Positions 85-37,000 of a stretch of DNA of 64,000 nucleotides are shown one piece after another (positions within the stretch are counted from its first letter, which is position 1; the number at the start of each line of letters is the position of its first letter). The notes below the pieces were generated by a model. The model made no database searches. It worked only from the letters and a program-made list of their open reading frames with translations, and was not told the DNA's origin. The stretch covers positions 15,716,611-15,780,610 of the forward strand of contig NC_049988.1 of NCBI RefSeq assembly GCF_000003815.2. The letters are read 5' to 3'. The position numbers and the translations under genes were made by a program. This DNA is from Branchiostoma floridae. Its lineage: Eukaryota; Chordata; Leptocardii; Amphioxiformes; Branchiostomatidae.

Positions 85-3000
85 ATGTAGGAGTGACGCG
101 TTGTTCGTACACCGATGATGACGGCTGCACGGTTCACTACACCTACGGCACGGACTCCTACAAGGGACAAACGTCAGACGACTTCGTGGTGGAGGTCCGC
201 AAGGACAGAGGTAAATGTCATTCATCAGTTTAGTTCAGTTCATCCTCGGAGAGGTGCCACCATCGTCTCCACATGTTCCTGTCCAGCATGATCGAACGGA
301 GCTCGCCGGCCTGTAAACCCGTGTCCTCGAGCAGTAGCTTCCTGAGTGTGGCCGAAGGGCGGCCACGCCTGCGCGGCTCTCCCGGTTCCCAAAGCAAGAC
401 CTCTTCTGCCATTTCCTCGTTTCATTCATATCGTTGCAAAAACGAGATAATGCTATATTGACATAATGTTTTGAAGTATTAGCTTGTTTAATATCAACTA
501 GATTGTCTATACCGTTAGATTAGATTAGATTAGATTAGATTAGATTAGTTGTTAGATTATTTTCAACCCATGATACAAGCAAATGATTGATTTAGATTCT
601 TTAAATAGTACATAGTTCAACCCATATAAATACAGATTGCCATACATTGTACCTGATGATATTGTCGCGCTATATTGACAATTCTCCCATCCTAAAGCCT
701 ATGTTTGGTTTAAAGCAGTCATCAACCTTAACGAAAGATAGTCTTATTGCTACCAAGTACTGTGGGTGTATTTTCACTAGATAACTTCAAACTACGCTTG
801 CAGATAGATGTGCAACGTTACAACCAGTTGCTAACATAATGCGTCCCTGCGAAGCTTGTGTGTCACGCCGGACGGCGGTTATACCGGCTACGCAGACAAA
901 GATCATAAGATAAAGTACGTAAAAGCCTACACAGGAGCAATGTCACAAGAAGTACCAATGTCTTCCACAACCGTGTTATGGGTCTGCTCATGTCCTTATT
1001 CAAAGAACCACATTTGTAGTAAAGGAAAATTAAAAAGCATAGGTGCTATTTAACACATACACTGACAAAACAGCTGTACAAAAATAAATGAAGTTAGATG
1101 AAAGAACGTACCTTCATTCATAGTTAGAGTATAAAAGAGTATAAAAGACCTGTTTCTTCCAGATCACTTCAGTGTCACTGACGAAGGATAGTGGATATAT
1201 CCGAAACGTCTGACCGTTTCCAAAACCATACCCAGTTGCTTGAGTAACTACTTTTTGTTGTATCTTATTACCTGGATGTCTAACCTACATCGACGTACCT
1301 ATTTTGTTTTCTTCCAGACTGTGTGACCCCGTTCCCGTGGTGGTGGCTGGTGCTGGGCATCATCCTGGCCATCCTGCTGCTGGGCCTGTGCTGCCTGTGC
1401 TGCTGGAGATGTTGGGCATACTACAAGGACAAGCAGGAGTTCCTACTCTGGCAGGACGAGATGAAGCAACAAGCTGTCGGATGGGACACAGTGAGTAGAC
1501 TGGATACCTAGTATAGGGGAGAATAAGATGAGACGTGCACTCTTTGGTTGCCTGGTCAGAACTGCTCTGGACAGACTGGGGGTCTGTCCCTTTATTGAAC
1601 ACTTATCAGAAACATATGTGGGGTGGCCCTGTCCTAGCTAGGACCACCTATGGCCAGTTTTATAGATCTTCCTGTTATCTCACATTGCGACATCCATATG
1701 TGCTTCTAAGACTAGTAACGTATTAGTGATGAGGATAGCTAGGGTCACATTGGACATAATCCAGACCATTGGGCAGCCGATGGGTGAACAGCAAACATTG
1801 GTCATTGAGATCGTTAGTCATTGAGATAAATTCAAAGTCAAGGAGTTCTTGCTCTGGCAGGACGAGATGAAGCAACAGGCTGTCGGATGGGACACAGTGA
1901 GTGGACTGGATATTATGTAACGTATTCGTGTTGGTGATAGCTAAAGTCCCATTGGACAGGACTGAGATTGTTGGGCAGCTGATGAGTGAACAGCAATCAT
2001 TGGTCATTGAGATCATTAGTCATATGAGATGATTTCAAAATTAAATCTTTGAAAGATCCTTCAAAAGTCATTTGGAGACGTAGGAAAGTGAAAAGTAATA
2101 GTGATATCGATTCAGTTTCGCTCATTGAAAAGCTATTGTTTTGGACGCTCATTGCTGGTGTGATATGTTTATGTCCTGAATGCTTGGTGAAGTCTTAACC
2201 ACTGTGCTCCGTATGGACTTCATTGAAGTAAGAGCTTTCATGGATTTTTTACATCGACTTTTTTGCAGGCAGAGAGCCCAATCTACACCGGTGCGGTCAC
2301 GACACACCAGAATCCTGAATTTATCGGTGGAGGCGCCGGTAAGATTACAAGTTTGCTCCTCTAAACAAGCTGCATGAAATTTCTAAAAGGGAATCTCAAG
2401 ATACAAACGAGTCCGATAAAAGACTTAGCTTTCAAAGAAATTTGTTCTCAAAGTTGTCACTTGATGCATAAATGTTTTATAGCCATTGCAGGTGCGTCCG
2501 TTGTTGATGCTGGACTAGTAAACGCATCCGCTCCAGTTGCAGCAGGTACGTAACCTCCTGCCAAGCGTCGGTATTTGATATTTCTATGAATCAGACATTG
2601 AAAACAATCTCTTTTCACTCAAGAACGCTATAAACAAACAAAACGTACATGTATTCAATATAACAAAGAAAAAAGAGTCAGCAAGTAGAATTGAATACAT
2701 AGAAGAGAGCACGTATTGATGTAACAGTCACACGCTTCTCTTGATGGCCACCATGTTGGTGGGTTAGTGCGTCATAGTCACGTGATTGCAAACTACAACC
2801 TTACCTTGTACATCTTGTCTCGTGCAGCTGCTCCGATGATTAACCTTGATCTGAAGGACAAGTTGATCGTGAAGACCGGGTCAGTCATCATCCTGGACAT
2901 CCCCTTCAGCGGCCGCCCCTCCCCGGACATCGTCTGGACTAAAGATGACGTGGAGATCTACAGGTGAGGATGTCAATCAATCAATCAATCGGTTAATTTA

Positions 3001-6000
3001 TCAGTCGATCGTTATTGACCAATACGCAGTAGAATACAAAAGAATGAAACTTGAATAATGTTTATTTACAAACAGTTCCAACATCCACAATATAAAACTC
3101 TTTCAGAGAGAGAGGAGAGAGAGAGAAAGAGAGATGGAGATTTGGGATAGTTCCATACTGTAGATGTTGCAACTGTTTTGAAAAAAAAATGATACTCAGT
3201 TTTATTCTAAATTCCCATCGACCATCAAAGTGCTGAAAAAATCACAGAGCATCATTTACTCATGCCAGCTACCATTGCTGCTTCAACTGCTGCTGCCAGC
3301 TCTTTTCCAAGCCTTTCTCCTTATTTTTTTCAGTGGGGATCGGGTGACCATTGAGAACGCGGCCACCTCCACCACTCTGTCTATCAAGAACTGCCAGCGG
3401 TCGGACGCCGGGAACTACAGACTCGCCCTGGCTAACACGGCCGGGCGCGCCAAGGCCGATGTGGACGTCGTCGTCATTGGTAAATATCTCTTGCAATGAA
3501 AATGTTTTACATATTCTACCTAAAGACATTTGATAGTTTGCAATATATCTCAAAGGTTGGCGGATATATGTATGTATGTTTGTTTGTGTGTGTGTGTCTT
3601 GTGGTGTGTGTGTGTGTGTAGGTGTGTGTATATGTGCGTGTGTGTACGTGTGTGTGTGTAGGTGTGTGTATGTAGGTGTGTGAGTGTAGGTGTATGTGTG
3701 TAGGCTTATATGTGGGGTTGGTGTGGTCTGTGTGTTTCTGTTTGTGTGTGTGTGTATGTGTGTGTGTATGTGTGTGTGTATCATGGTGTGTGTGCATCTG
3801 TGTCTGCAAGTGTGTATACACTATTATTACATGTCATCATTTTATCCCACGCAGACAAACCGGGACCTCCAAAAGAAGTGCGTATCGATGACGTCATGCA
3901 GGATTCCGTGGCGTTGTCATGGCGACAGCCAATGGACGACGGCGGCAGCAACATCACTAACTACGCGGTTGAGAAGTTTGATTATGACCGTAACAACTGG
4001 GCCATGGTCAACCCTTATGTCCCAGGTACTGAAGTAATTTTTTTTCAAAAATTACACGTATTAAACTCTAGTATACATATCTTACGTCTTGCTCGACAGT
4101 TAATAACTTTTGCATCGGACCAGACCTGTGCATTGGTAGAGGTCCTCTACAAGGCTCCCAATGTCGCTGAAAATAGTAGAAATCGGACAAATACAAGATA
4201 CAGACAAATAAAACACTAGAGGAAGGGGTTAATCGGCCCAAATTCTATTTTTGAGGCGACCAACTCCTCAAGTCACACATTTGTGTTGTCTATCTGGCCA
4301 ATTTCTACCTTTTCCAGCGACATGTAGAGCCTGGTAGAGGCTGGGCCAAGCCTTGTAACAAAGATTTTGTTGACCTTAAGCTTGTACTGCTATATTTTGT
4401 TGCAGGTTTCAACTACACCGTGCCTAACCTGGTGCCCGGAGCGGAGTACCTGTTCCGTGTGGCCGCTGAGAACCAGTGTGGGCTCGGGGAACCGACAGAG
4501 AGCGAGAGGATCGTGGTCCAGAACCGGCATGGTAAGGGTTGTGCTCCTCAATTTCTGCAGTAAGGTTCAGTGGTTTGAAATAAAACCAGTCAAACTAAAT
4601 CCTAAAAGCATGGCAAGAATTTTTCTCATGTGGTGTGAGGCTAAGTGGTATTGGCAGATATCAAGTCAGTCAAACTAAAGCCCTCCAAAACTACCCAAAA
4701 GGGAAGAAATGTATTCATGACTTACACACCTACATAAACACTATGCATAACAGTACATATACAGTACTGCACAGTCTCTCCGTTTGAAGAATTTCTCTAC
4801 TGTTATATATCTGAATTCGTTTTCACCATTACATGATATACGCTTAAACTACCAAAATGATTGCCACGGTCCAGCCCTTGGAAACAAGAACAGTGAAAGT
4901 AGGAAAAGTAATCTAACATAGATTTGATTGAGATTGAGATAGTATTTACTACATACACGGGTGCAACAATTGCAAATGTTCTTCAATGTCCTTAAACTGT
5001 GCTCAAACTGATCTATCAACCCTTATCTCCAGGCCGACCCCCGGGCGTTCCCGGTACCCTGACCTATGAAGAAGTGACCGGTGACCGGGTGACCCTGCGC
5101 TGGAGCCCGCCATTGGACGATGGAGGTAGCGAGGTGAGTAGGGCACATTTGTGTATGACTCCTGCTGATCAATACTTTGGCTTCAGTAAAAATGTGAAGA
5201 AAAGTTAGAATTCCTTTCTAAAGAAATCTCTCCTAATTACACTGTCCCCTGTTGGGAAAACACAACTGACATAAGTGTATCTACAAGTGAAAGTACGATG
5301 AAATTAAGGCAGGGTGTGTGCGGGTCTGTATGTGCGAGCTTATTTTTTCAACACACGACCTCAAAGTCTTTTTCAAGTCATTTTTTCCACTAGATATCTA
5401 TATCAAACAGGTTAACTCGTGTCTTTGCAGCACAGACATGTTTATGGCCTCCTTCAGTCCATATCGACCATGGTAAAGTTCTAATTTAAGTAGTAATTGG
5501 TGAAATGAACATTCGTCATATTCTCTTTGAAATCGTTCATTCCAGATCACCAACTACGTGATCCAGAAGCGTGACTCTAACGACCCCCACGGTTGGACCA
5601 CGGTGTCCTCCTCCGCCACCCGCACCACTCACCGGGTCGGCAACCTCAACCCCGGCGGTAACTATCGCTTCCGAGTCCGAGCGGAGAACTACTACGGTCC
5701 GGGGCCCTGGACGGAATCCGGCGGAGTCATGCTGGGTGGAGGTTCTCTTGGTAAATTTTCCCATAACTCAGGTCTAACTTCGTAACAACCGCGATCCTAA
5801 CTTGTGTGCAGTCTGGCATTCAGTTCAATGTTTGGTCCAAAATTGTGAAACTACAATGTTTGTAGACTGAACTTCGTCCGAACAATGTTTGTTCCAAAAT
5901 TTGTAAAAATCCGATGTTTGTAGAATTAAATTCATCCTTAACAACCATGATCCTAACTTGTGTGCCGTTTGCCCTAAATTGACATTCAATATCTAATGGC

Positions 6001-6581
6001 TTCTGCCTGTAGCGACATCGATGAAAATCCATCGAATGCATATGTGGCTGCAGTTTAGAGACTTTCACTAATTAAGATCCAAAACGTGGAAAAGAAACAT
6101 GACCGTAACATTTCTCTTGAAAGATGACAGATTGAAGACACAATCACTAATTGAACATTCTGTACTTTTTTGGTTACACGAATCCAGTCTGCCTTATTTC
6201 TAGATTATTGGCAATGGTACTTTTTTTCAAAATCAGCAAAAGAGTGGTTATTAAGAAAGCATTAATTGGCCGCTAGAAGCCACTGCAAATGTCAAATCGG
6301 TGGAGGCCAGCTCACATATCTTTTACAATGCACCACAACTTCATCCACGTTTTCAGGAAGGGGACCGGTGCAACAGAACATGTCGTCGTTTAGCTCGGGG
6401 CAGTTTTCCACTCTGCCCGCCGGGATGAGCTTCCAACAGCCGGCCTACATCATCGCTCAGGCGCCCCCCATGAGCTCGACCCTGCCGTACGGAGCCAGTT
6501 TCCCGTCCATGGCGTCCTGGGGATCATCCATGCAGCAAGAGGTTCCACAACAGCAGGCCCCTCCTCCGAAACCTGATCCAA
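85..6581 (+). CDS. Integrin beta-like receptor, 3' part with titin-like Ig-FN3-FN3 cytoplasmic tail (shared exons)
   Basis: Exons 85-210, 1318-1490, 2269-2338, 2492-2545, 2828-2963, 3334-3479, 3855-4025, 4406-4531, 5033-5133, 5546-5750 and 6357-6581 all have GT-AG ends and matching phases. The 5' exons lie before the window. Visible residues 1-45 are the end of an integrin beta-tail ectodomain (RCSYTDDDGC, RDC). Residues 49-70 are a membrane span ending in CCLCCWRC. Residues 77-117 follow the integrin beta tail: KDKQEF, GWDT, then SPIY and NPEF where vertebrates have NPxY/NPxY. The protein does not stop there. A 24-residue spacer leads to an I-set Ig domain (141-235, with GRPSPDIVWTKDD and SDAGNYRLALAN), two FN3 domains (236-333 and 334-430, each with W-x-P-P/M-x-DDGGS) and a Q/S/P-rich linker (431-510). 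The Ig and FN3 domains resemble titin, twitchin and MyBP-C. Known beta subunits signal through talin and kindlin at these tail motifs; the role of the extension is unknown. Integrin identity is strong; the fusion rests on phase continuity. Confidence 0.85.
515..548. repeat. (TTAGA)n microsatellite
   Basis: About seven uninterrupted copies of the pentamer TTAGA lie in the first intron. It is not the TTAGGG telomere unit. Confidence 0.95.
775..905 (+). mobile_element. Degraded LINE 3' end, copy 1
   Basis: The stretch reading GCAGATAGATGTGCAA and later CGGCGGTTATACCGGCTA matches the better preserved fragment at 45500-45716 and the inverted fragment at 21390-21440. In the 45.5 kb copy this part encodes a typical reverse-transcriptase C-terminus. 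Copy 1 has lost that frame. Confidence 0.6.
1120..1270 (+). mobile_element. Penelope-like element 3' remnant with hammerhead-type motif
   Basis: The core at 1174-1214 reads GTCA, CTGACGA, a 5-bp hairpin GGATA/TATCC, then GAAAC-GTC-TGAC. This follows the layout of the minimal hammerhead ribozymes described in Penelope-like elements: stem I is GTCA/TGAC, with predicted cleavage after GTC at 1210. One extra A (1185) sits between the core and stem II. Assignment to the Penelope group is an inference from the motif alone; no GIY-YIG or reverse transcriptase coding remains. Confidence 0.5.
1716..2036 (+). repeat. Tandem intron duplication including the 3' end of the integrin TM exon
   Basis: About 115 bases at 1716-1832 recur at 1917-2036 (both with GATAGCTA, then TTGGGCAGC, then GGTCATTGAGATC). 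Between them, 1838-1906 is a near-copy of the 3' half of exon 1318-1490 with its donor GTGAGT (phrase GAGATGAAGCAACAGGCTGT). The copied exon part lacks the membrane span and a proper acceptor, so it is probably a dead duplicate. Confidence 0.8.
2979..2993. repeat. (TCAA)n short repeat
   Basis: Four copies of TCAA lie just inside the intron after exon 2828-2963. Confidence 0.7.
3108..3134. repeat. (GA)n microsatellite
   Basis: Interrupted GAGAGA tract within the intron of the Ig domain. Confidence 0.85.
3563..3815. repeat. (GT)n-rich microsatellite tract
   Basis: About 250 bases of interrupted TGTGTG/TATGTG with occasional TAGG. It sits in the intron between the Ig domain and the first FN3 exon. 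Open frames here on both strands are low-complexity Cys/Val or Thr/His artefacts. Confidence 0.95.
4140..4340. mobile_element. Palindromic MITE, TAGTCTCTACCAG family, copy a
   Basis: Left arm CTCTACAAGGCTCCC...GTCGCTGAAAATAGTAGAAAT pairs with right arm ATTTCTACCTTTTCCAGCGAC...GCCTGGTAGAG. It lies in the intron that splits the first FN3 domain. It is degraded relative to the copy at 27952-28138. Confidence 0.7.
4532..5032. other. Intron, no feature seen
   Basis: Unique-looking AT-rich intron between the two FN3 domains. I see no repeat, RNA or exon in it. Confidence 0.6.
5782..5980. repeat. Degenerate tandem repeat in intron
   Basis: The phrase GATCCTAACTTGTGTGC occurs twice, and AATGTTTGT-CCAAAAT twice between them, suggesting an old local duplication. 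The rest of intron 5751-6356 is unremarkable. Confidence 0.6.
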
Positions 6582-7869
6582 GTGAGGCCCCCTACCGTTT
6601 GCAATTGGGACTGCCGCCTTCCTCTGCTGCCCTTCTCTACCACTTCTCCACCTTCCCGATTGCTTTTGATCCGCCGCGTTTCAACAGCACAGCAATTTTG
6701 AATGTCCCATCACTGCAATACATATCTTTGTTCCTTGTCGCGCTTGCTCTGCATTCTCAATGTCGCGCTCATAATCGCGCTGTGCCCCTCCCCTTTAACC
6801 CTTTTAAATAGGCTACAGGATTAGTTTCCAGTATTAGACAGCTTTGCCTATCCCTCTGAGTATTCAAATATCGATCCATTGCTCTCTGAGCAGTAGCGTC
6901 ATTTTCGCTGTAGATAGTCTTTTATCCCGCCCTTGCCTTGGCTAGCGTCTGTAGTGCTTTTGTCATATTCACTTCCACATGTAACGTGCTATGCTGATAC
7001 TGAGACCACTCACACATTGTTGCGGTATCGCTTACCTGTTCTGCAATGATGCAGCTGTGTGCAACATAGGGCACTATTGTGTAGTCTATATCATAGAATT
7101 TAGTTGCCTCCTGCACTAAATGCCCTGCGCCTAGCCTTGGTCATTCCTCTAGCGATACTCACGTTGCTTTTCCTTTGGCGCAACTATACTGTACCCTTGT
7201 AGACATGCAGTAGTGCAATGCATGCGATTCCTTAGCCGTCCAGCCTAATAAACATTAAACGTGCTTCTTGTAGTTTTCATGGTTACCTTCCCTGCCGCTT
7301 TGTAAAAGATTCATGGAGTATCATGTGCGAATGTCATGGGATTGTTGCCTTTATTCCATTGTAGTTTTCTTTTGATAAATGATTATTGCTTCTCGCTGAA
7401 ATATTCCTGTTCCGGTATGCTGCTCATGTAGTTAATGCTGGTAGACATTGAAACATATGTGTTAAGATCCCCCACGTCATAATTTTCTACTTGTACATAC
7501 TATCGGGAATGGCATTTGTATCGAACTTGTAGGATCTCGTGAAATGGCCAGACATCATGTACTTGATTTTTAAAGCCTACTTACAGCTGACAGAAGATGC
7601 TTACCTTGAAATATTACATACGCTTGTACATGCATTAACAAAGATAGTCTTCGATGCCCCCGGACGCTGAGAAAGCTGCTGAATAACCCCGTATTTGCGT
7701 AGACCGACAGAAAGATAGTAATCCTTGCGCCACCAGATTTGTAGTGAATTGGATGAAGTTCCACGATCGAAGCAAGGAGCTCCTTGATCGAAGGGACCAA
7801 GAAGACGGTAAGATGCTTGAAAGGAAGCTAACAAATGACGCTTGCATAGCCATCAGGCAGAGATAACCC

Positions 7870-8003: not shown

Positions 8004-9544
8004 TTGGCCCGGTGCTGCGCCAGGGAGTGACTCTAGTGGGGAAGGACTTCACCGAGGTGCTGCTGCTGCTGATGCGGGGGGACACGGGCATGCCCAGCCC
8101 GCTGGCACGCTTCTACACGCACCAGCCCATGGACCAGATGGGCGAGCAGCAGCTCAACGACTGCACCGGCGGCCTGTGCGGGTTCAAACCTGCCGAACTG
8201 CTCATCCTCTGCGGACTCACGCCCAACAGGTTAGTTTCTTTTTTTCCCGGGCTTTATTTATTTTGTGTTCTACGGCCAGCGTAGCTCAACTCAGTGTAAC
8301 CACACTGCTTTACAGTGGGGCCCTGGATAATCTTTATAAACAACGAATGAAGACATTGACCTCAGGCACTTGCAAGTACAGTAGAAACTAGTTAATTGCA
8401 CAGCGGATTAACGCACACTTCTGTTGACTACACGATATCCCAAAATCCCGAACCGGTGCGGTCAAGCTGGATAACTTCGCATTATTGCACCAGTCGGATA
8501 ATTGCACGAAATACGGCTTTTACTGTATTGATATTGGCTTGAGTTTGTTTTTGTTAAATTTGGGGGGCTGTTTTTTATTGGCGGTTTCTGCTTATTATGA
8601 CATGGGCATTCGCTGTATGCAATCAGTGAAACGGTAATATCAAAACGACTACCGTATTAAGAGCTGTATGAAGGTCAGCAACACGTATGGATAAGTTAGA
8701 TTAGGAAAACCTTATGAGAACATGATTATTTTGTCATTAGCGGAATATTACAACGCCAAAAACCTTATTTCATAATCAAGAATAAAACCTTACCGTCAGT
8801 ATTGGCCTCCGAGTAGCCGTTTCAGAAGATAAACGTGAAATCCAATGTTTAAAGGCTGACGTTAAGACATTTTAGTAATACATACTGAAGATTTAACTGT
8901 TGTTTTTCGCAGGTCCAACACGCTTAAATTGTGCCATTACCTCATCATTCTGGCTAACGAAGAACGGAGCCACCACCCAAGTTTTAATGTGAGTTTGCTT
9001 TATCTGATAAGGTATACTAATAGTCACAAGCTACATGTAGTCTAACATCGCTGTACAACCAGTAGAGATCAGAGGTTACGTTATGTGAAATCAGATAAGA
9101 GATGAGGGACGGGTTTATGTAGTTGCCCTGTTCCTACATACTCCCCCCCCACGTTTATTTTATGAGAAAGATTGTATCATTATGTAAACAAAGTTGCAAA
9201 AATGCAGTGTTGATGTTTGCTTCACCATACTTTGATTGTAAAAGAAAAGTAAACATTAAACTGCCTTTTTTTTCTTTCCATAGAGCCTGGATGATGTCCT
9301 AGTTACTGTGAAGCAGATCTGTAAGAAGCAGGACCTGTCCTATGACGCCATCTCTCTCATCAACGCCCTGACCATCCTGGTGGATCTCGGTAGGAAGTAC
9401 CACCACCAGGACCTCCAGAAGTTCGAGAAGGCGCTGCACGAGGCTCGCACCAACATCACCAACAGGGAGCTTGGCAGGGTCATCCTTACCATCCTGGGTA
9501 CACTGAGGTTTCCACGTATCTACTGCAAAATGATGGAGGCATAG
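8004..9544 (+). CDS. Alternative C-terminal cassette A of the integrin beta-like gene
   Basis: Three exons, 8004-8229, 8913-8988 and 9284-9544 (stop TAG 9542-9544). The first accepts a phase-1 donor, exactly what exon 6357-6581 leaves, giving a visible protein of 697 residues. The cassette encodes about 187 residues that look alpha-helical after a short beta-like start (VTLVGKDFTEVLLLL). Clear landmarks shared with cassette B are the phrases HQPMDQM, CGFKPAELL, LIILANEE and RELGRVILTILG. I do not recognise the domain. A candidate polyadenylation signal ATTAAA lies at 9841-9846. It could instead be the 3' end of a separate gene, but no start or promoter is evident between 6581 and 8004. Confidence 0.72.
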
Positions 9545-9840
9545 GACAAGCCACTTACTGCTTACAGCGAGGAAATGCTGCTTCAATGCCGTGCATTGCC
9601 GACCACCCCCCCCCGCAATTTAGCCTATTATCCATCCCTATATAGCTCTTTATAGGCTATATCCAGTAGTACCAGTACCCGTCGCAAAATACAAGGCTAA
9701 CCACAATCAAGTGTTATCTATTTCATTCTCGGCTTATGAGCTGAACGTCGATGACTGTAGCAGGGGTAGTAGTAGTTTGTAGTCTCAGTCTTTGTTGCCT
9801 GTAAATATGTTGAGAGCATCAGGCAATGAATAATCTCTTT

Positions 9841-9846
9841 ATTAAA
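9841..9846 (+). terminator. Candidate polyadenylation signal for cassette A
   Basis: ATTAAA lies about 300 bases after the cassette A stop and before the cassette B exons. A signal here is what an alternative terminal exon needs. No transcript end is known. Confidence 0.4.
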
Positions 9847-10394
9847 AGCATTGTCTTTGCGTTCTGAATGGTCGTTCACCATCCTGGATTCATCCAACCC
9901 CTGCCACCATGGTGCCTGCGGCAACAATCTTTGATCGCTCTCGCGTCTTCTTCGCACGCTTTGCAATCGACCCGCGTTTGCTGGTAAAGGCTCAGTGCTT
10001 ATGTGAGATTGCTGCGCCTCTCTTTCCTTTCTTCTTTTCCCCACGAGTATTCGCGTTCTTTCTACACCTCTATTCCGATTTTCCTCACTTATGGTGGGAA
10101 TGTGGTAGGAAGTCACATTATCATTGACAAATTATGTTTTGTAACGTAACGTGAGGAGATTTCAATTATCTTTAAAATGTCATGTGTTGGACTTTATCTA
10201 ATTGTTTCGTCAATAACTTTGAACACATTTCAACACATTGTAATAGATATTTAATCTAAAACGCTTATGGCAAACACAATGTCACTCAGGGATTAAAAGG
10301 GAAATTAATTTCTCCTTATCAAATTATTAACTTCTCGTCAGCCCTATAAAGCCCACAGCCAAATCTAAAACATGACGTCACTATTGCTCCTTAG

Positions 10395-12295
10395 GCTTGA
10401 ACGTCGTTGTCGTCAAGGTGAACGTGACCTTGAAGAACAAGGACATCACCCCTCTCCTGCTGAGCCTGAAGGACGGCGACGTGGACCTGCCGCCTAACGG
10501 CGATGACCTGTGCCGCTTCAAGCTGGACACGCCCCTGGACCAGATGACGGACGACGAGCTGCGTGAGAACATCGAGGAACTCTCGGGCTTCACCCCGGAG
10601 AACCTGCTGGAGCTGATCCAGATGCCGGCGACGCGCCAGAACGTGCTGGCCCTGGCTCACCTGATGATCCAGCGCGCCAACGAGGACCTGCCCGTCACCC
10701 CGGCGGCGCTGACACCAAAGGCCCGCTCACGGACGTCCTCACAGTCAAGTGGCACGGGCCAAGAGGTGGGTATGAAAAGGTCAGTATCGGACACTACCTG
10801 CGGTACGTATCTTATCCGCCGCCGGCCGCCTCGCCTCGGCTGGCGATCTCGTCTTGAACTAACCGCCAACCGTGTCTTCCACAGGGAAAAGGTCGCAAAT
10901 TTTCACGTATTCCTCAGATGAGCAAGACAGGTTTTCACTATTGCAAAGCTGTTATTAATGCCTGTGAACTCCTAGCAGACGTTTTGAAGCATTTTCATAG
11001 GGTAATTTGCCAGAAAAACTGGGTAGACGGAAAGGGGTTGCGGTCTTCTTTACCGGCATCTGCTTTGAGCTTGTTTGTCGTACTTTGTTCTTATGACTCC
11101 TTTGATGAGTATGTGTCAACTGTCAACTACAGCTTACTTTTGGGACACGCTGCCCAACGAATCGGTGACGTCAGTGAATCTTGTTTACACATGCTCATCC
11201 AATGCAACGTCATCAGAACAAATGTTTATCATCTGAGAACCTTTTGAAAACTTGAGACCTTTTCCTGTTACAAAATGCCGCTTACTAAACTTGTCAGACA
11301 TGCATTGAGTTACCATTTCTAAAGCAAGGTTTTGAAATGAGAAAGACCTTCCCTCGGATTTCTTTCTTTGACAAGGTGTGCATGAAATTAAATTACTTCT
11401 GATCATTTTTTTCCTTTTGTGTCAGAGCTAAGGAATGTGTTAATTCTTGAAAAGTACTTACCGTGGACGTGTCAATGTTTGGGGCTTTTGTTGGGTGCAC
11501 TTCTGGAGGTGGCGGTCTTACTGATTATTCTTTCATTTGTTATGATAATTAGAAATCCCGATTTAAGTTTTTCCCATAACTTGGTCAACATTGAAGCTAA
11601 ATATGAAGCACAAAATGGTGCATGTAATACTGCTTAAGTTTTGTTGTTGCTTTCTTTATAAAAGTGCAATCTACGATACAAAAGCACTTTTGTTGTATTA
11701 ATACGTTTCTTCAACGCTTGCATGATCTATTTCTTTGGATCACAGATTTGGTATCACACTTTTAAAATCAATTTGCACCAAAATCCTTATCGTTAAATCC
11801 AAGCCTTAAACACGGTGAATGAAAATTAGCGGTCTCCTAAACTTCGCAGCAACTTTCTTAAAACTCTTCACACTTATCTGTAGTTCTGTTTTCATTTCAC
11901 CGTCAATTGCTAAAGGAAGCAATGTCATTAGACATCTTTCAAAGCCAATGTAAATGTAGTTCTCAAAGTTTTGTATTTCTCTCTTCTGTTAACAGTTAAC
12001 CGGCCCGGAGCGGGCAGCCAGAGTGGGGAGGAAACTTGATTGGTTAGAGACAGCGTTGGAAGAGGCAGCTGTCAAACAAGCGTTAAACTGTGCAAGACTT
12101 TCAGCCTCCAAACCAGCAAAAGACTTTGACAGGGACAGCCTTTTGATCAGTTTAGAAAATCTGCAGGACGTCACGAAACAGTACCAACATCCGGAGTGGA
12201 GATATTACCAGGAAACATTGACGATAGCGAGACAAAGTATGTCGGACCCAAACCTTGGCAAGTTGGTTCTGGCGCTTATTGGAAAACCGAGTTAG
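10395..12295 (+). CDS. Alternative C-terminal cassette B of the integrin beta-like gene
   Basis: Two exons, 10395-10765 and 11996-12295 (stop TAG 12293-12295). The first again accepts phase 1, so exon 6357-6581 can join it directly, giving a visible protein of 733 residues. The protein is homologous to cassette A along its length: VNVTLKNKDITPLLLSL, DTPLDQM, SGFTPENLLEL, LMIQRANED and LGKLVLALIG match A in order. B lacks the intron that splits A after its first exon, and has an extra Ser/Thr-rich stretch (RSRTSSQSSGTGQE) before its only intron. Phase is 0 at the internal junctions of both cassettes, so an A-exon-2 to B-exon-2 hybrid would also stay in frame. Domain function is unknown. The order A-stop-B suggests alternative last exons made by tandem duplication. 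Confidence 0.7.
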
Positions 12296-14352: not shown

Positions 14353-15359
14353 TCACTGCAAAGAAAAGTAAAAAAAGTTTGATGATTGCATGTGCCAGAT
14401 CAAATGATGAGTAAAACAAGAGAACATTTATAATGTTGAGAACTTGACATTCTGTAAACGAATACTCTTTTGTGCACATACATGTATATGCTATAGTTGG
14501 GACATGAACAAACACATATTTTACGTAACAAGATATTAGAAATACTATTTCTTACTTCTAGTACTCACATAGCTTTTCCAGCACCAATACCAGCTCCCCT
14601 TGCTCCAGTCGATACAGATTGTGCGATACTTCTTCTTCTTGCCTCTTTTCTGAAGTTCCTCTCCCTTGGCGCTATAATCATAAGCCTCCGAATCGATGGG
14701 CAACTCATGTTCAACCGGTGCCATCTTCTTCGAGTAGTCGTCTCCTTGGTCATTGGCGAGGAAAGAGTCCTGAAAAGTTGAAAGTATTTTATCAGTGCCA
14801 GTGCCAATGATTGCTTCCTTCGAGATAAAAATAGTTCACAAGTTAGGGGCCTTGACCTTTGACATATCATCCACAATGCATGTCGCTACCATGCGTAAGC
14901 AGGAACTTGAACCTCGTTGTCTATGGAATCTCAAATAACTTTTAACCAATTTGCCCCTTTTTTTTGCTATTTTCAAGATCCTCTACAATACACACTCTAC
15001 ATAGATTCAAATAAACATTGACTTAATTGGGAAGTAAACTGCAACAGTTTTGAAACGCCTATTTTCAATTTTCTACTGAGGATGTTAACTTTCATATTAA
15101 ATGCGTGCATACGTTCTATTGTCACAGAGATATTTGAGCTAAGATTGTGCTAGAATTCAACATTAAAAGCCAGAGTGAGACTGTCTTTCAAATCTGAACT
15201 TACATCTTTGTCGTCCAATCGTTTGAGGAGATTTCGGAGGGCGGTCAGCCGATCCGGAGAACCGTAGGGCGCAGGCGCAGACTCCGCCGTTGGCAAGGCC
15301 AAACACGTCATTAATAGTGACGTCATGAGAAAGTAAACTGCGACATGTGTGTTGACCAT
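14353..15359 (-). CDS. Secreted loop-peptide precursor 1 (119 aa, unassigned family)
   Basis: Coding exons on the minus strand are 15359-15204, 14769-14569 and the stop codon alone at 14355-14353, with phase-0 GT-AG introns. A splice acceptor sits 6 bases before the ATG, so the 5'UTR is on another exon. Residues 1-28 form a signal peptide (hydrophobic YFLMTSLLMTCLAL, then ESAPAPYG). An acidic pro-region follows (RLTALRNLLKRLDDKD, then DDYSKKM and PIDSEAYDYS), then KR at 93-94 and GKKKK. The C-terminus carries Cys104 and Cys115 enclosing ten residues (CIDWSKGSWYWC) and ends WKSY. Size, leader and a C-terminal 12-residue disulphide ring recall somatostatin, urotensin and MCH precursors, but the ring sequence matches none that I know. 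The gene at 31.05-39.2 kb has the same structure. It probably encodes a hormone-like secreted peptide. Confidence 0.68.
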
Positions 15360-18300
15360 ATTTGTCTGAAATGCAAAAACAATGCAACAATGGTATAAGA
15401 TGCACGCTAGTTTCATTTATATAATGTTTCAACGTTATTCATGTTAAGTTAAGTATTTATCTATTAAAGTGGCACTGATAGAATAAGCTGTATAGATTGA
15501 GTGCAGTGCCAATCCTTGTTATTGTCCTGTATGATAATACAGTATGATAAAAAAATATGTCGAATGTCGGTTCTGCCATATACCCACTGAAAATCCGACC
15601 GGGCCTTTCTCACCAATGCCACTTCTCATGTCTTTCTCCAATCACTCTCTTAACACCGGATACCATATCACGAGCACCACAGCACAGCATATGGGCGTTC
15701 CTTATAACGGAATGACGTATGTGCCTTCTGTCAACGGACGAACCTACCAAAGCCATGATTTCAGTATTAATTAAAAAGCTATCAAAGACCTGAAAGTGAC
15801 GAATGGTTGAAACCCTACTTACATGTCAAATTTGTCCTAAAATTGCAGTCGGTTCTCCTGGTTGGATCAAAGAAACGAATCTTACTCTGCCAGCAAAATT
15901 TGACGTCTTTCCAAATATGATAAATGGAATGCCTACGGCATCAGAAACCGACTTAAGCGTCACATATGACCAAACGATCTCGTTCGACCTATTTTTCCAA
16001 AAAAAGCAATAAAACTCAATAACCAACTAAAGGTGTTATCAATCATGGTCTCGACGCTATTACCTTATGTACCGACATGACGTGAAGACGAGTAATACGT
16101 TGACGTAAGCTTAAGATGCCGCACGAGAAACTGACCTTTACACATGCAATTATATTATCATCGGTCATGTTTATTGGCTTAATGAAACGAACTTGAGTTT
16201 GGTTCTTTTAGTCCACTTTGACATTTCGAAAGGTGAGCAAGGAATTACAAAAGGTTTGAAATAGTTTTCGTCTCAAATGATGAACGTAGGCCTTTTTTAA
16301 CCCCTGGAGCAATAAAATGTCACTGAGAACAGTAAGAACGGTTGCGCTATACTGTAAATGAAACTAGCGTGGATTAAATGCCTTTTGACTATTTTTTACA
16401 TTTTACAACTGTAAGACAGGGATTGTCAGTTAACGTTCCTTCAAAACCTTCAAGTGCCAAACCTTATCATCTCTCTCATAAAGCAATAAAACCTAATAAG
16501 GAACAGAAACAAGATGTCATCCATCTTGAACCCAGCGTATTTCCCTGTTGGACGGGTTCATGTATAAATGACACCTACATCGACGAAGAACTCATAAAGC
16601 CACACGCCCCAGCTGACACGCTAAACCCCCAATCGATACCCATCAAATCTGACATACTTATATGACACGCAGCTCTTGGGTTGAAAAAATCCTATGTGAA
16701 TCTCAATCTCAATGAACGGATGTCAGATATATATTACCTGCTACATGTGTTAACCAGTGGACTTGGGTACAATATCGAGAGAAAGCGACAAGGTTACGTA
16801 TACGTTCGCGCACGCTTTCAGAAACTCGCGTACATATAACGAAAGGTAGAAAAGGCTTTGCTAGCCTGGGCATAGATCTAACACAGACGCTACGCGTCTT
16901 AAACTGGTGTCCAACATACCGTCGAATGACCCAGTGGCTAGCTAGTGGACACGGGATCAAGAGGCCACGGGTGTGATGCATGGTGTTTCTAGTTAGATGT
17001 TATCTCTTAGGAAATGGCACTTAATATGACTTTCCCCACTTCTCCAAGGTGTAAAAATGGGTACCTGTCTTCTGTTTGAGACGTAAAATGTGGTTGAAGG
17101 AGAGGGATGGGCTTCACCTTCCAATATCATGCCGTTGACACAATGCTCAAGAAGGCCATTGTACGACCGTTACCTTTTACCAACCTAACCCATTGCAGGT
17201 TGCCACGATTGCCGTGCAGATATGACATCTTCATGTAGCTCAATTTGGGACACCTGGGTGGCTTGGGTCTTGTCAGCATCAACTGTCATAGCACATGACA
17301 AGATTAGGGCTATGACATTTTGAAGACAAACTAAAACTCTTCGAGGTATAAGATCATTGATGTCTTGCTGCCAGGTTATTTCATATTTTCAAGGTAAATT
17401 TCACGGCACTTTTAATCCTCTTGTGAAGAATAGCATAGAGTGGGAAAAGCTTTTAAGTCTAAGCCGAGCTCGGCCAAAGTAAACTTTGATAATCTTATGA
17501 TCTAACAGTCTCGTCTTCCACATGAGAAATAAAAAGATAAAATCCAAGGGACCTAGACAAAAAGTATCTACTCACGTACCCGAGTCATTAGGTCAATGGT
17601 ACTGTATATACTTAGTAGCTTTATGAGACATTGTAATACATATATATGGATGGATTCACTGGTGATAAGATACGACTGTGACGTACCTTCCCGGGGTTTC
17701 AGTTTTGTAATGGTAATTTTAACCTCTTTTATCAACCGTTCAACTCTGCCCTGAATTTATATTAAAAAAATAATGGTTGCAACTTTTATTATACTTTGTT
17801 CTTCGCAAGTAGCAACAAGAAATCGAGGAACCTATACCCCCGTGACAAAATATTTCACAGCCATTTCTATTTCACATATCACTTGCATGCTCCCCTCCCG
17901 ATTATATGCCATCCTTCGGCTGGTTCCTGCCTTTTGGCTATGGGCCAGAGTTTACTTCCCGCCAGCCTGCAGAAGGAATTTTGACGAACGCCTGTTCAAC
18001 CAGTCTTCGAAGCTTCGGTTACATCTCAGCCAGGGAACAACCTTGGACCCGGACCAGTAGGAACACACATCAAGACAAACAGACTGAAAACAATACCTCC
18101 GTTTTCCCGGAGGTAATAACTGTTTTTGATACATTTCACTCCTTTTCCGTACCGACTTGTCCCTTTGCCTTATTCCTGTGTTCTCTCACGGGCCCAGATC
18201 TGCTTTTCTTCATCATGAGCATATTGCAGATTAGATAATTGGTCGCGGACGATACCCCGTTCTAGAAGGAACTAAAAGGGCATTTGTGCCATCGTCTGCT

Positions 18301-34000: not shown

Positions 34001-37000
34001 ACGCCGTATAAATTTACGTGCAGGCAAAACTTTGTGTGCCATCGGGACACCTTGCGCAACCGTGCGAGTGACGTACTCCCTCCCGGCTCTTTCCAGTCGT
34101 TCCCCACGTTTTCAGAAATACGTGGCGGACGTGGCCTCCCCAAAGAAAGTACGGACAAATTGCACGTACGACGGGTTTTGCCCTTAGCTTTACAGATGCG
34201 CCTTGAAGTCTGATGGTTCAGTGAACCAACATGTTTGCCGGGTACAAGGTACCTCATGTAGGAATTAGACTTGTGCAACATGGAGAAACGTAAGCTTTCA
34301 TCTGGGATTATGTGAAGTGCTGTTGTCTATCTTACACAATAAGTTGAATTGTCTATGGCCAGCTATGAGTATCGGGGCGCTGCGCCCCCGTTCCCCGGTT
34401 CAGAAAAACCCCTGCGCGGCGGGCGGGGATCGCGATCGGATGATAGTATGCATCCTTTGTATTTCTCATTAAGGTTTACCACAACATGCATTTGCTATGG
34501 CCTTTCTCGTTAGAACATGCATCGCTTGCATTTCTCTGTAAGATTTACGAGGGTACCCTCGTACCATTAAAACTGACTGTGCCGCCTGACAATATATGAC
34601 CTAGCCATGACCAGGGACTAATTCATATCAGCATGAAGGCACTTAAAGTTCACTACAATGAAACAACCTACAGCTTTTTTTAATATTTGCTGTGGAACAC
34701 ACGAGGACATTGAGAAACTGCACGCAAGTTAGTAACTTATTAGCAAGCATGACGTGGCTTTTAGACACATGCATTTGATTTTTATAGGTCCATTTTGGCT
34801 TGCTTCCAAAAGCGCTTTTAAAGTCTCTACTTTAACTCTGATTGAAGTTCCTAACTAACAAATGTTTACTATTACCATGCTATTATTGCAAACAAACAGG
34901 CATATAAACAAACAATGAAATAAAGAAAGAAAAGAGGACATGACGCGTAGAGTTACAGGCAATGACGTGTCTTTACGGGAAGTGACGAGGACCTTACAGA
35001 AAGTGACGTGTGTCCTTACCCTACAGAATCGCCACTTGCCAGTCTTCTGGTTGTAGCAGACGTACATCCACCCCAGCCTGGTGTGCAGCGGCTGTGCCTC
35101 TACAGGCAGGGCGTCCCTGTCTACATCAAACGGTACCGCAGCCTCCACCGGATCAACCTCCGTGTCGTCTTCGCTCTGTCACAAATGTAACAAAATCAGT
35201 GAGAAATGTTACAAAACTAGTCAGAAATGTGACAAAATCAGTCAGAAATGTGACAAAATCAGTCAGAAATGTAACAAAATTAGACAAAAATATCACAAAA
35301 TCAGTCACAAATGTAACAAAATCAGTCAGAAATGTTACAAAACTAGTCAGAAATGTAAGAGATCAGTCAGAAATGTAACAAAATCAGTCAGAAATATCAC
35401 AAAATCAGTCAGAAATGTAACAAAATCAGTCAGAAATATCAAAATCAGTCAGAAATGTAACAAAATCAGTCAGAAATATCACATAATCAGTCAGAAATGT
35501 AACAAAATCAGTCAGAAATGTAACAAAATCAGTCAGAAATTATTTATGGTTTCGGCCGCATCAGTTGCAACAATATATATCATGCCTATCATATGGATAG
35601 TCCCAGATAGACAAATAATTACGAACAGGAAAAAAATGAAGCCCGGATATCATTGATAGTTTGTATTTGTTTTTTATAACATTGGCATCGCCATCGACCA
35701 ATGCAATGTGCTAGGAAGCCGGAGTCTAACATCTGTTTAAACTTTAGGGATTCCTCTGCCAAGACAGCTGTTCTCTAAATTAGAGAACATATAATCCCAT
35801 ATCTGCTAAGTAATCTGCTAACTATCTACCTAAGTAATTGACTTCATAATTGGAATATCAAAATGTAAAAGTATGTCTGAAAAGACAAAAAAATGCACAA
35901 AGCGAAAAAAATCTATGAAATTCGTGGTACGCTCTGCCAAATCACTGTCGCGGCAAGCTTAACGTCTCAGTAGAATGTGGACGTCATAAAATGACCTGTT
36001 TAAGACGTTGAGTTGAGTTGAGTTTATTTTGATCCACAATTAGCCTCATCAGAGGCTATTCTTCCTGTAGTCACATACATATCTACACATTACATACGTA
36101 CAGTATGACGTCAAATCTATTAAGTCAACGTGGGCACAAAGGGCCCCCTGTGCCTACGTTGACTTAATAGAAGCTTTTGACATGACCTGTTTAAGCCCCC
36201 TTTACAAATCAAGAATTTAGCTCGGCCGAGTTGTCAGCGAGCTATAAATTACGAGAAGTTATGACCCTGATGCCGACGAAGAAACTCTGCCTTTTGTTCG
36301 TAGGTATCAGGGTTATACCTCCTCGTGATTTAGAGCTCGCTGTCAACTCGACCGAGCTAAATTCTTGATTTGTAAAGGGAGTCTGCCAATTTTGTGATCT
36401 ACAACATGTAGAAGATGAACAGCATTTTATTTTACACTGTAAATTGTACCATAATGAACGGATTGTGCTTTATGAATATATCAGAAAAGAGTTCCCATAT
36501 TTTGAACATCTTAATGCAACGGATAAATTTCTATTTTTGATGCGCCTAGACAAACCCTGTATATCAAACATTATATGTTCTTATATCTACACCTGTACAA
36601 AGAAGCGAGAAGATGTCGACCATCCTGTTAGCTTAGTACCTTCAACTAGTTAAATTGTATCCTGTTGTTTTTTCATATATTTGTTACATGTATTCTGTTA
36701 TCAGTCATGTCTGTTATCAGTGACCTGTACCTAGCCCGTCGAGGCATGAATGTACAATAAAGGTCTTTCATTCATTCATTCATTCATTCATTCATTCATT
36801 AAGCCAACATGGGCACAGAAGGCCCTTTGTGGCCACTTTGACTTAATAGGAGCTTTTGACGTTTTAAACAGGTCATGTCATGACTCGGAGCTTACCCTTT
36901 TGACACCAGAGATCACAAACAAGGCTCCAACTAAGCCCTAGTAGTGCAAAAACTGTCCCACATATTTTACAGACTGCGAGGAAAATCCGTCACATTGTTA

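Follow-up and report, generated by a model that had tools for sequence, protein, structure and literature searches.

The short motifs of integrin tails rank with the most conserved in animals, and among well-studied tails we know of none but that of vertebrate beta-4 that has grown into a modular arm. The beta-4 tail contains a Calx-beta domain and four FN3 domains, which, in the sections available of PMC4030831, are described as carrying most of the intracellular interactions of beta-4. A beta-4 orthologue has been reported from Ciona, with short open reading frames (ORFs) 3' of the gene that are homologous to a domain shared with Na/Ca exchangers (available part of PMC1145181). For amphioxus, a muscle ItgB1/3 is named without domain detail in the excerpt of PMC8805411, and that of PMC2607016 contains nothing about lancelet beta chains. 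Here we analysed a window of 64,000 nt of the lancelet Branchiostoma floridae (bases 15716611-15780610 of contig NC_049988.1, called C10, 23.9 Mb long, in a genome of 513 Mb and 431 contigs), with upstream positions given as negative window coordinates. Its plus strand holds the 3' part of an integrin beta gene in which the cytoplasmic tail appears to continue into a titin-type Ig-FN3-FN3 cassette and, less surely, into two Gag-like repeats (R1 and R2). Among the matches listed in a search of open-licence full texts, by title and start of abstract, there was no paper on a lancelet integrin with an Ig/FN3 tail, in agreement with an earlier sequence-only reading of the locus, which knew of no described integrin with this domain order; annotated databases may differ.

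The sequence-only reading had placed eleven exons between 85 and 6581, and their borders and phases were borne out, with AG acceptors and GT donors throughout and outgoing phases of 1,0,1,1,2,1,1,1,0,1,1. The exons are real but make up only part of the gene: exons for the VWA, hybrid, I-EGF and beta-tail regions, starting about 8 kb 5' of the window, supply a near-complete integrin beta ectodomain, and five more phase-matched exons, which probably belong to it, lie 3' of 6581 (8004-8229, 8913-8988, 9284-9497, 10395-10765 and 11996-12295). The latter code for the two Gag-like repeats and are new here. When all exons were joined, the frame ran from about -8446 to a stop at 12293-12295, giving 1541 codons without an internal stop.

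Judged by its sequence, this is a real, unusual integrin beta gene with a beta-1-like ectodomain and a membrane span. In the spliced ectodomain, Pfam recognised the integrin VWA (beta-I) domain (PF00362, E=2.1e-92, 246 of 248 positions) and I-EGF repeats (PF18372, 1.7e-9; PF07974, 8.5e-8 in three stretches; PF23105, 1.4e-7). In the PDB, the best match was integrin beta-1 (phmmer, E=2e-158), followed by beta-3 (2.2e-145), beta-6 (7e-131), beta-7 (4e-120), beta-2 (1.6e-112) and beta-8 (2e-85); beta-4 is absent from the best 60 of the 66 matches. The stretches DLSDSMKDD and NLDAAEGGFD aligned with metal-site stretches of beta-1, the DxSxS stretch and most adjoining metal-site residues being retained; where beta-1 has the loop NPCTSEQNC, the lancelet protein reads EPSPGAA, without the specificity-loop cysteines. 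No PSI domain was found, as the pattern C...C.[WFY]C does not occur in one frame between -16000 and -6500, a search that an intron-split PSI could escape; a PSI-type pattern is present in a paralogue at -42595, and by eye ECLADPITCGE may be a PSI remnant. The N-terminus is Gly-rich, with GGGST-type repeats in several exons (about -10290..-9830, -8880..-8620, -8446..-8353 and -7979..-7855), and ends in GRKKRQ, presumably a furin-like site, where other beta chains carry the PSI domain.

The end of the ectodomain is encoded by the beta-tail region exon 85-210, which has splice sites and a matching phase and aligns through to beta-1; PF07965 scored 24 bits on its open frame, under the cut-off of 33.6. 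Exon 1318-1490, used by the gene finder and supported by its splice sites and by alignment to beta-1, codes for the transmembrane helix, marked by a hydropathy peak, and for the membrane-proximal tail ending in GWDT, while exon 2269-2338 carries the SPIY ... NPEF motifs (Pfam, beta-1 alignment and splice sites). The resulting cytoplasmic tail, GWDTAESPIYTGAVTTHQNPEF, aligned with a 22-residue stretch of beta-1, and Integrin_b_cyt (PF08725) was found in the spliced tail at E=4.8e-7 (29.8 bits, cut-off 23.4). Its motifs are degenerate, with W-DT kept, SPIY in place of NPxY, then TT, and NPEF as the second motif; the metal-site, talin-docking and kindlin-docking roles of the motifs named here are those we take them to have. 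Two results speak against the integrin assignment: in genome-wide single-exon scans Integrin_b_cyt was found at 4 places, this gene not among them, and Integrin_B_tail was listed neither for the spliced protein nor, among 6 places, for this exon. A neighbouring tandem integrin gene (-39.8 to -27.3 kb) ends conventionally, with GENPIYKQATSTFKNPTYGGK directly followed by a stop.

Within this part of the gene, the membrane/tail exon and its intron are partially duplicated in tandem (1436-1500 and 1832-1930), and the copy retains frame and donor. The copied segment of the membrane exon, KEFLLWQDEMKQQAVGWDT at 1840-1896 (94.7% in tblastn), is a possible alternative mini-exon, of which the gene finder used 1861-1896, and could contribute a second W-DT motif. 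Between tail and cassette lies a 54-nt linker exon (2492-2545), defined by splice sites and phase, with a coding score of -1.7 and passed over by the gene finder; it can be skipped, the junction 2338/2828 being in frame both with and without it.

The cassette itself occupies six exons, all of them supported by Pfam and splice sites, in which the two halves of the I-set Ig (2828-2963 and 3334-3479), of FN3-1 (3855-4025 and 4406-4531) and of FN3-2 (5033-5133 and 5546-5750) follow each other. Pfam detected fn3 in two stretches (E=1.4e-32) and I-set (1.1e-16) in the spliced tail. When the Ig-FN3-FN3 block was searched against PDB, titin came first (8q6t_I, 3.5e-190, five stretches) and second (8g4l_bm), followed by MyBP-C (8g4l_bo, 6e-65) and titin again (8bnq, 8bxr), and no beta-4 chain was among the best 60 of the 113 matches at E<=1e-6. 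A genome search with the cassette gave 110 matches, 105 of the 526 candidates having been scored; within this set the high-identity matches were confined to this locus, and none was at another integrin-beta locus. The best places outside the gene were on contig C18, in open frames of about 1900-2400 codons, where the match reached 37% over query positions 101-378, almost the whole block; pairwise blastp against one of these frames gave 34% over 291 aa. We infer from its sequence that the C18 locus is titin itself. The Ig-FN3-FN3 block is thus by sequence closest to titin, and Pfam domains, PDB and genome matches agree with the earlier claims that the integrin tail continues into Ig, FN3 and FN3 and that these modules are titin-like (titin first and second in PDB, 34-37% identity to the C18 locus).

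Two observations weigh against joining tail and cassette. Read-through of donor 2338 would yield a short tail, GKITSLLL-stop (2362-2364), so that a conventional short-tail isoform is possible, and the first Ig exon contains an in-frame ATG (2836). Both would suit an integrin gene ending soon after NPEF, at stop 2364 by intron retention or in another last exon, with Ig-FN3-FN3 as a small titin-like gene starting at about 2836. We consider such an arrangement improbable, given that 489 bases lie between 2338 and 2828, that in-phase splice sites stand on both sides, and that after an AATAAA or ATTAAA starting at 2040 the next one starts at 4060.

The FN3 pair following the membrane span, together with the orthologue reported from Ciona (available part of PMC1145181), would also be expected if the gene were orthologous to integrin beta-4 and its cytoplasmic domains had been rearranged. 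However, Pfam recognised two cytoplasmic FN3 stretches, not the four in two pairs of beta-4, and no Calx-beta in the tail, in line with the layout different from beta-4 that the sequence-only reading had described; the beta-1-like W-DT/xPIY/NPxF tail is retained, and the PDB matches of the cassette described above speak against beta-4 as well. A genome scan for Calx-beta gave 24 matches at E<=0.001, none beside an integrin locus, the nearest lying more than 500 kb away, on C2. From 34 VWA matches we counted eight integrin-beta loci, two each on C2, C4 and C10 and one each on C9 and C267. Searching with the tail (tblastn) revealed no cassette in the stretches around the other seven, the reach past each gene being unequal; gene-finder models were poor or lacking at the minus-strand C2 locus and at those on C4, C9 and C267, where full tails were not read. 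Because no cassette was found at the seven other loci and no Calx-beta beside any, the lancelet gene does not look like integrin beta-4, and its FN3 tail looks independently acquired. Orthology to beta-4 was set aside, since no Calx-beta lies beside an integrin locus and the FN3 domains are nearer titin; it stays as a minor and very unlikely rival. At the C9 locus (C9:18825751-18834117, minus strand), a diverged integrin-beta VWA is followed by same-strand open frames that are hemopexin-like by eye; the gene finder joined the two, and a fusion or a neighbouring gene are both possible.

The exons were modelled with a purpose-built gene finder, which enforces phase and had the exons 85-6581 other than 2492-2545 in its training set. 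Unaided, it built one model from the exons of the ectodomain, the tail and the Ig and FN3 domains; it omitted 2492-2545, 8913-8988 and 11996-12295, inserted the mini-exon 1861-1896 and closed with a meaningless 6-nt exon (11426-11431). The three omitted exons were added manually, 2492-2545 following the sequence-only reading, and 8913-8988 and 11996-12295 since R1 and R2 align through them. Phase agreement by itself is weak proof, because the borders were picked to fit and the gene finder enforces phase; stronger support comes from the combination of domain content with coding scores and splice signals. As controls for the coding scores we took 500 stretches per length between 14 and 63 kb of the window, a part presumed to be mostly non-coding, and determined single-frame percentiles. 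The six Ig/FN3 exons, which were in the training set, scored +31 to +61, against control 99th percentiles of -10 to -28 for stretches of 136-226 nt, and the Gln/Pro/Ser-rich linker exon that follows them (6357-6581, with a phase-1 donor at 6582), also in the training set, scored +55.8. The five R exons were outside the training set and scored, in order, +30.5, -10.6, +31.7, +61.2 and -34.9, so that four of the five exceeded the control 99th percentile for their length (-27.8 for 226 nt, -2.9 for 76, -21.6 for 214, -65.0 for 371 and -42.3 for 299). The exception, the 76-nt exon 8913-8988, remained under even the control 95th percentile (-9.3).

The two repeats, R1 of 173 aa and R2 of 222 aa, are homologues with 28% identity at a pairwise E=3e-21. 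Part a of R1 is encoded by 8004-8229, part b by 8913-8988, which has splice sites and phase, and its second half by 9284-9497; the first half of R2 is encoded by 10395-10765 and its second half by 11996-12295, with the stop TAG at 12293-12295. Homology supports each of these five exons. Exon 8004-8229 has no upstream in-frame ATG and requires a phase-1 partner; its phase-1 acceptor fits the donor at 6581, and the join 6581/8004 was preferred by the gene finder. From these sequence features we judge it rather probable that one gene runs to 12295. Alternatively, the integrin gene would end with the Gln/Pro-rich exon (stop 6811, poly-A signal 7247), and 8004-12295 would be a separate Gag-derived gene starting at about 7753. 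Two genes are conceivable in view of the AATAAA at 7247 and of a single candidate start exon (ATG 7753, phase-1 donor after 7807, only GT[AG]AG donors having been scanned), and stand-alone Gag-like genes exist at many places in the genome. The frame 6582-6811, on which this ending depends, scored -44.5, about the 95th percentile of the non-coding controls (-44.3), which is poor but possible as coding, compared with +30.5 for 8004-8229. A separate Gag-derived gene is therefore a serious though less probable alternative, and we retain the single gene in what follows.

Neither repeat matched a Pfam family over its cut-off or a PDB chain under E=0.5; sub-threshold matches to SASRP1 (E=0.0032) and DUF6368 (E=0.012) and 11 PDB matches at E 0.53-0.76 were taken as chance. 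The idea of a lancelet signalling domain was dropped, since the 8 places read outside the gene are Gag-like ORFs. These belong to a dispersed family, with 39 matches in the genome to one member, including R2 itself and some pieces of one copy. Eight downstream regions of Gag-like copies each had a second piece bearing DP-x-I/V-H-x-YP, two of them in part, at a distance of about 1.3-1.9 kb from the first, calculated from coordinates; a CCHC knuckle was evident in five of the eight stand-alone exon-2 regions. In one of the eight (L035, of L035-L042), an ORF with an ALOG domain follows (PF04852, E=5.7e-28; best PDB match plant LSH3). The ALOG domain is a mark of DIRS1-type retroposons, and from this one neighbour in eight we infer that the whole Gag-like family is DIRS1-type. 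DIRS1-like elements are listed for B. floridae in the available part of PMC3266345. In the 5 kb 3' of each of two Gag-like copies (L043 and L044, one mostly N), no reverse transcriptase or recombinase frame was recognised by eye.

The first halves of R1 and R2 aligned with Gag-like exon 1 at an hhalign probability of 98.9% (E=1.4e-17, 2 versus 5 sequences), while the crossed controls gave 0.2 and 0.3%. An intron of phase 0 follows the first half in both R1 and R2, and by eye a phase-0 intron was also seen in stand-alone copies, as donors in three (L029-L031) and acceptors in three (L037-L039), suggesting that DNA was captured together with its intron. Most likely, R1 and R2 descend from a two-exon retroposon gag gene that was captured with its intron and then duplicated, although a retroposon may conversely have acquired the domain from its host. 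Several results detract from a Gag origin: the second halves matched gag exon 2 weakly (hhalign 7%, E=0.005), the second half of R1 gave a weak blastp match to one exon-2 copy in a five-sequence set (E=0.002), and no zinc knuckle (CCHC) was found in either repeat in the Pfam scan. Averaged over 19 residues, hydropathy at the R1/R2 junction reaches 2.15, a value that a second membrane span could have; R2 would then lie outside, so that the side of the membrane on which the junction stands is uncertain.

Taken together, we think it likely that the locus is one integrin beta gene comprising a degenerate tail, a linker, the titin-type Ig-FN3-FN3 block, a Gln/Pro-rich linker and, less surely, R1/R2, the added parts being proposed to act as a docking arm and in clustering. 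This keeps the earlier interpretation of an integrin tail passing into titin-type modules in a layout unlike beta-4, and extends it, since the gene probably continues beyond 6581 and the Gag-like repeats and Gly-rich N-terminus lay outside that reading. The receptor would pair with an alpha subunit and bind ligand, its metal-site residues being mostly kept, and talin docking through SPIY would be weaker. By analogy with the FN3 tail of beta-4 in hemidesmosomes, the Ig-FN3-FN3 block could form a stiff docking arm that links the receptor, without need of talin, to a partner in the cytoskeleton; binding to myosin or thick filaments, which the sequence-only reading had suggested, is possible. A titin-like gene would have supplied the block in one piece, in an event separate from that in beta-4, and the Gag-like repeats may add self-association that favours clustering of the receptor. 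Counting against this proposal, its exon joins are known here from genomic sequence, and partner binding and oligomerisation are deduced. An assembly artefact joining unrelated genes, conceivable where the order has been seen in one assembly, is scarcely credible in view of the exon-by-exon continuity over about 20 kb inside a 23.9-Mb contig and of the frame kept throughout. More tentative is a bolder version, in which one beta chain has both an arm derived from titin and a domesticated DIRS1-type Gag module, in tandem and with its intron. The titin modules would anchor this receptor to the contractile or intermediate cytoskeleton and Gag self-assembly would cluster it, as a second, independent invention in the style of beta-4.

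Elsewhere in the window, small frames at 14545-15416 on the minus strand resemble, by eye, a secreted peptide precursor, with a signal-like start and dibasic sites, and open frames at 35007-35656 appear to be built of many short NVTKSVR-like units in tandem.

If the titin-type arm on this lancelet beta chain was indeed acquired independently, the modular-tail solution evolved twice, and titin modules as direct adhesion links become testable. The gene would also be a possible example of a cell-surface receptor that has captured a Gag-like module from a retroposon, and this extension increases the interest of the gene to the extent that, as seems rather probable, it runs to 12295.

Compared with described systems, the gene shares with the integrin beta-1 type the VWA, I-EGF, a region that aligns through the beta-tail, the membrane span and a tail of the form W-DT ... 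xPIY ... AVTT ... NPx[FY], but differs from it in lacking a recognised PSI domain, with a Gly-rich region and RKKR site instead, in lacking the specificity-loop cysteines, in having SPIY and NPEF, and in its long extension beyond the tail. With the Gag of DIRS1-type retroposons carrying an ALOG domain it has in common the first half of R, homologous to Gag-like exon 1 and followed by a phase-0 intron, whereas R1 and R2 are two copies that stand in tandem and have diverged, lack a zinc knuckle and are probably part of a receptor. Like integrin beta-4 of vertebrates, of which the Ciona orthologue has been reported, it is an integrin with FN3 domains beyond the membrane span, but instead of a Calx-beta domain and four FN3 domains it has one I-set Ig, two titin-type FN3 domains and probably the Gag-like repeats. 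Finally, it shares domain order and sequence with the Ig-FN3-FN3 blocks of the titin A-band (also found in MyBP-C and myomesin), at 34-37% identity to the titin-like locus on C18; unlike those blocks, the lancelet cassette stands in a membrane receptor and each of its domains is split by an intron, whereas the best-matching titin-like stretches run without interruption in frames of about 1900-2400 aa.

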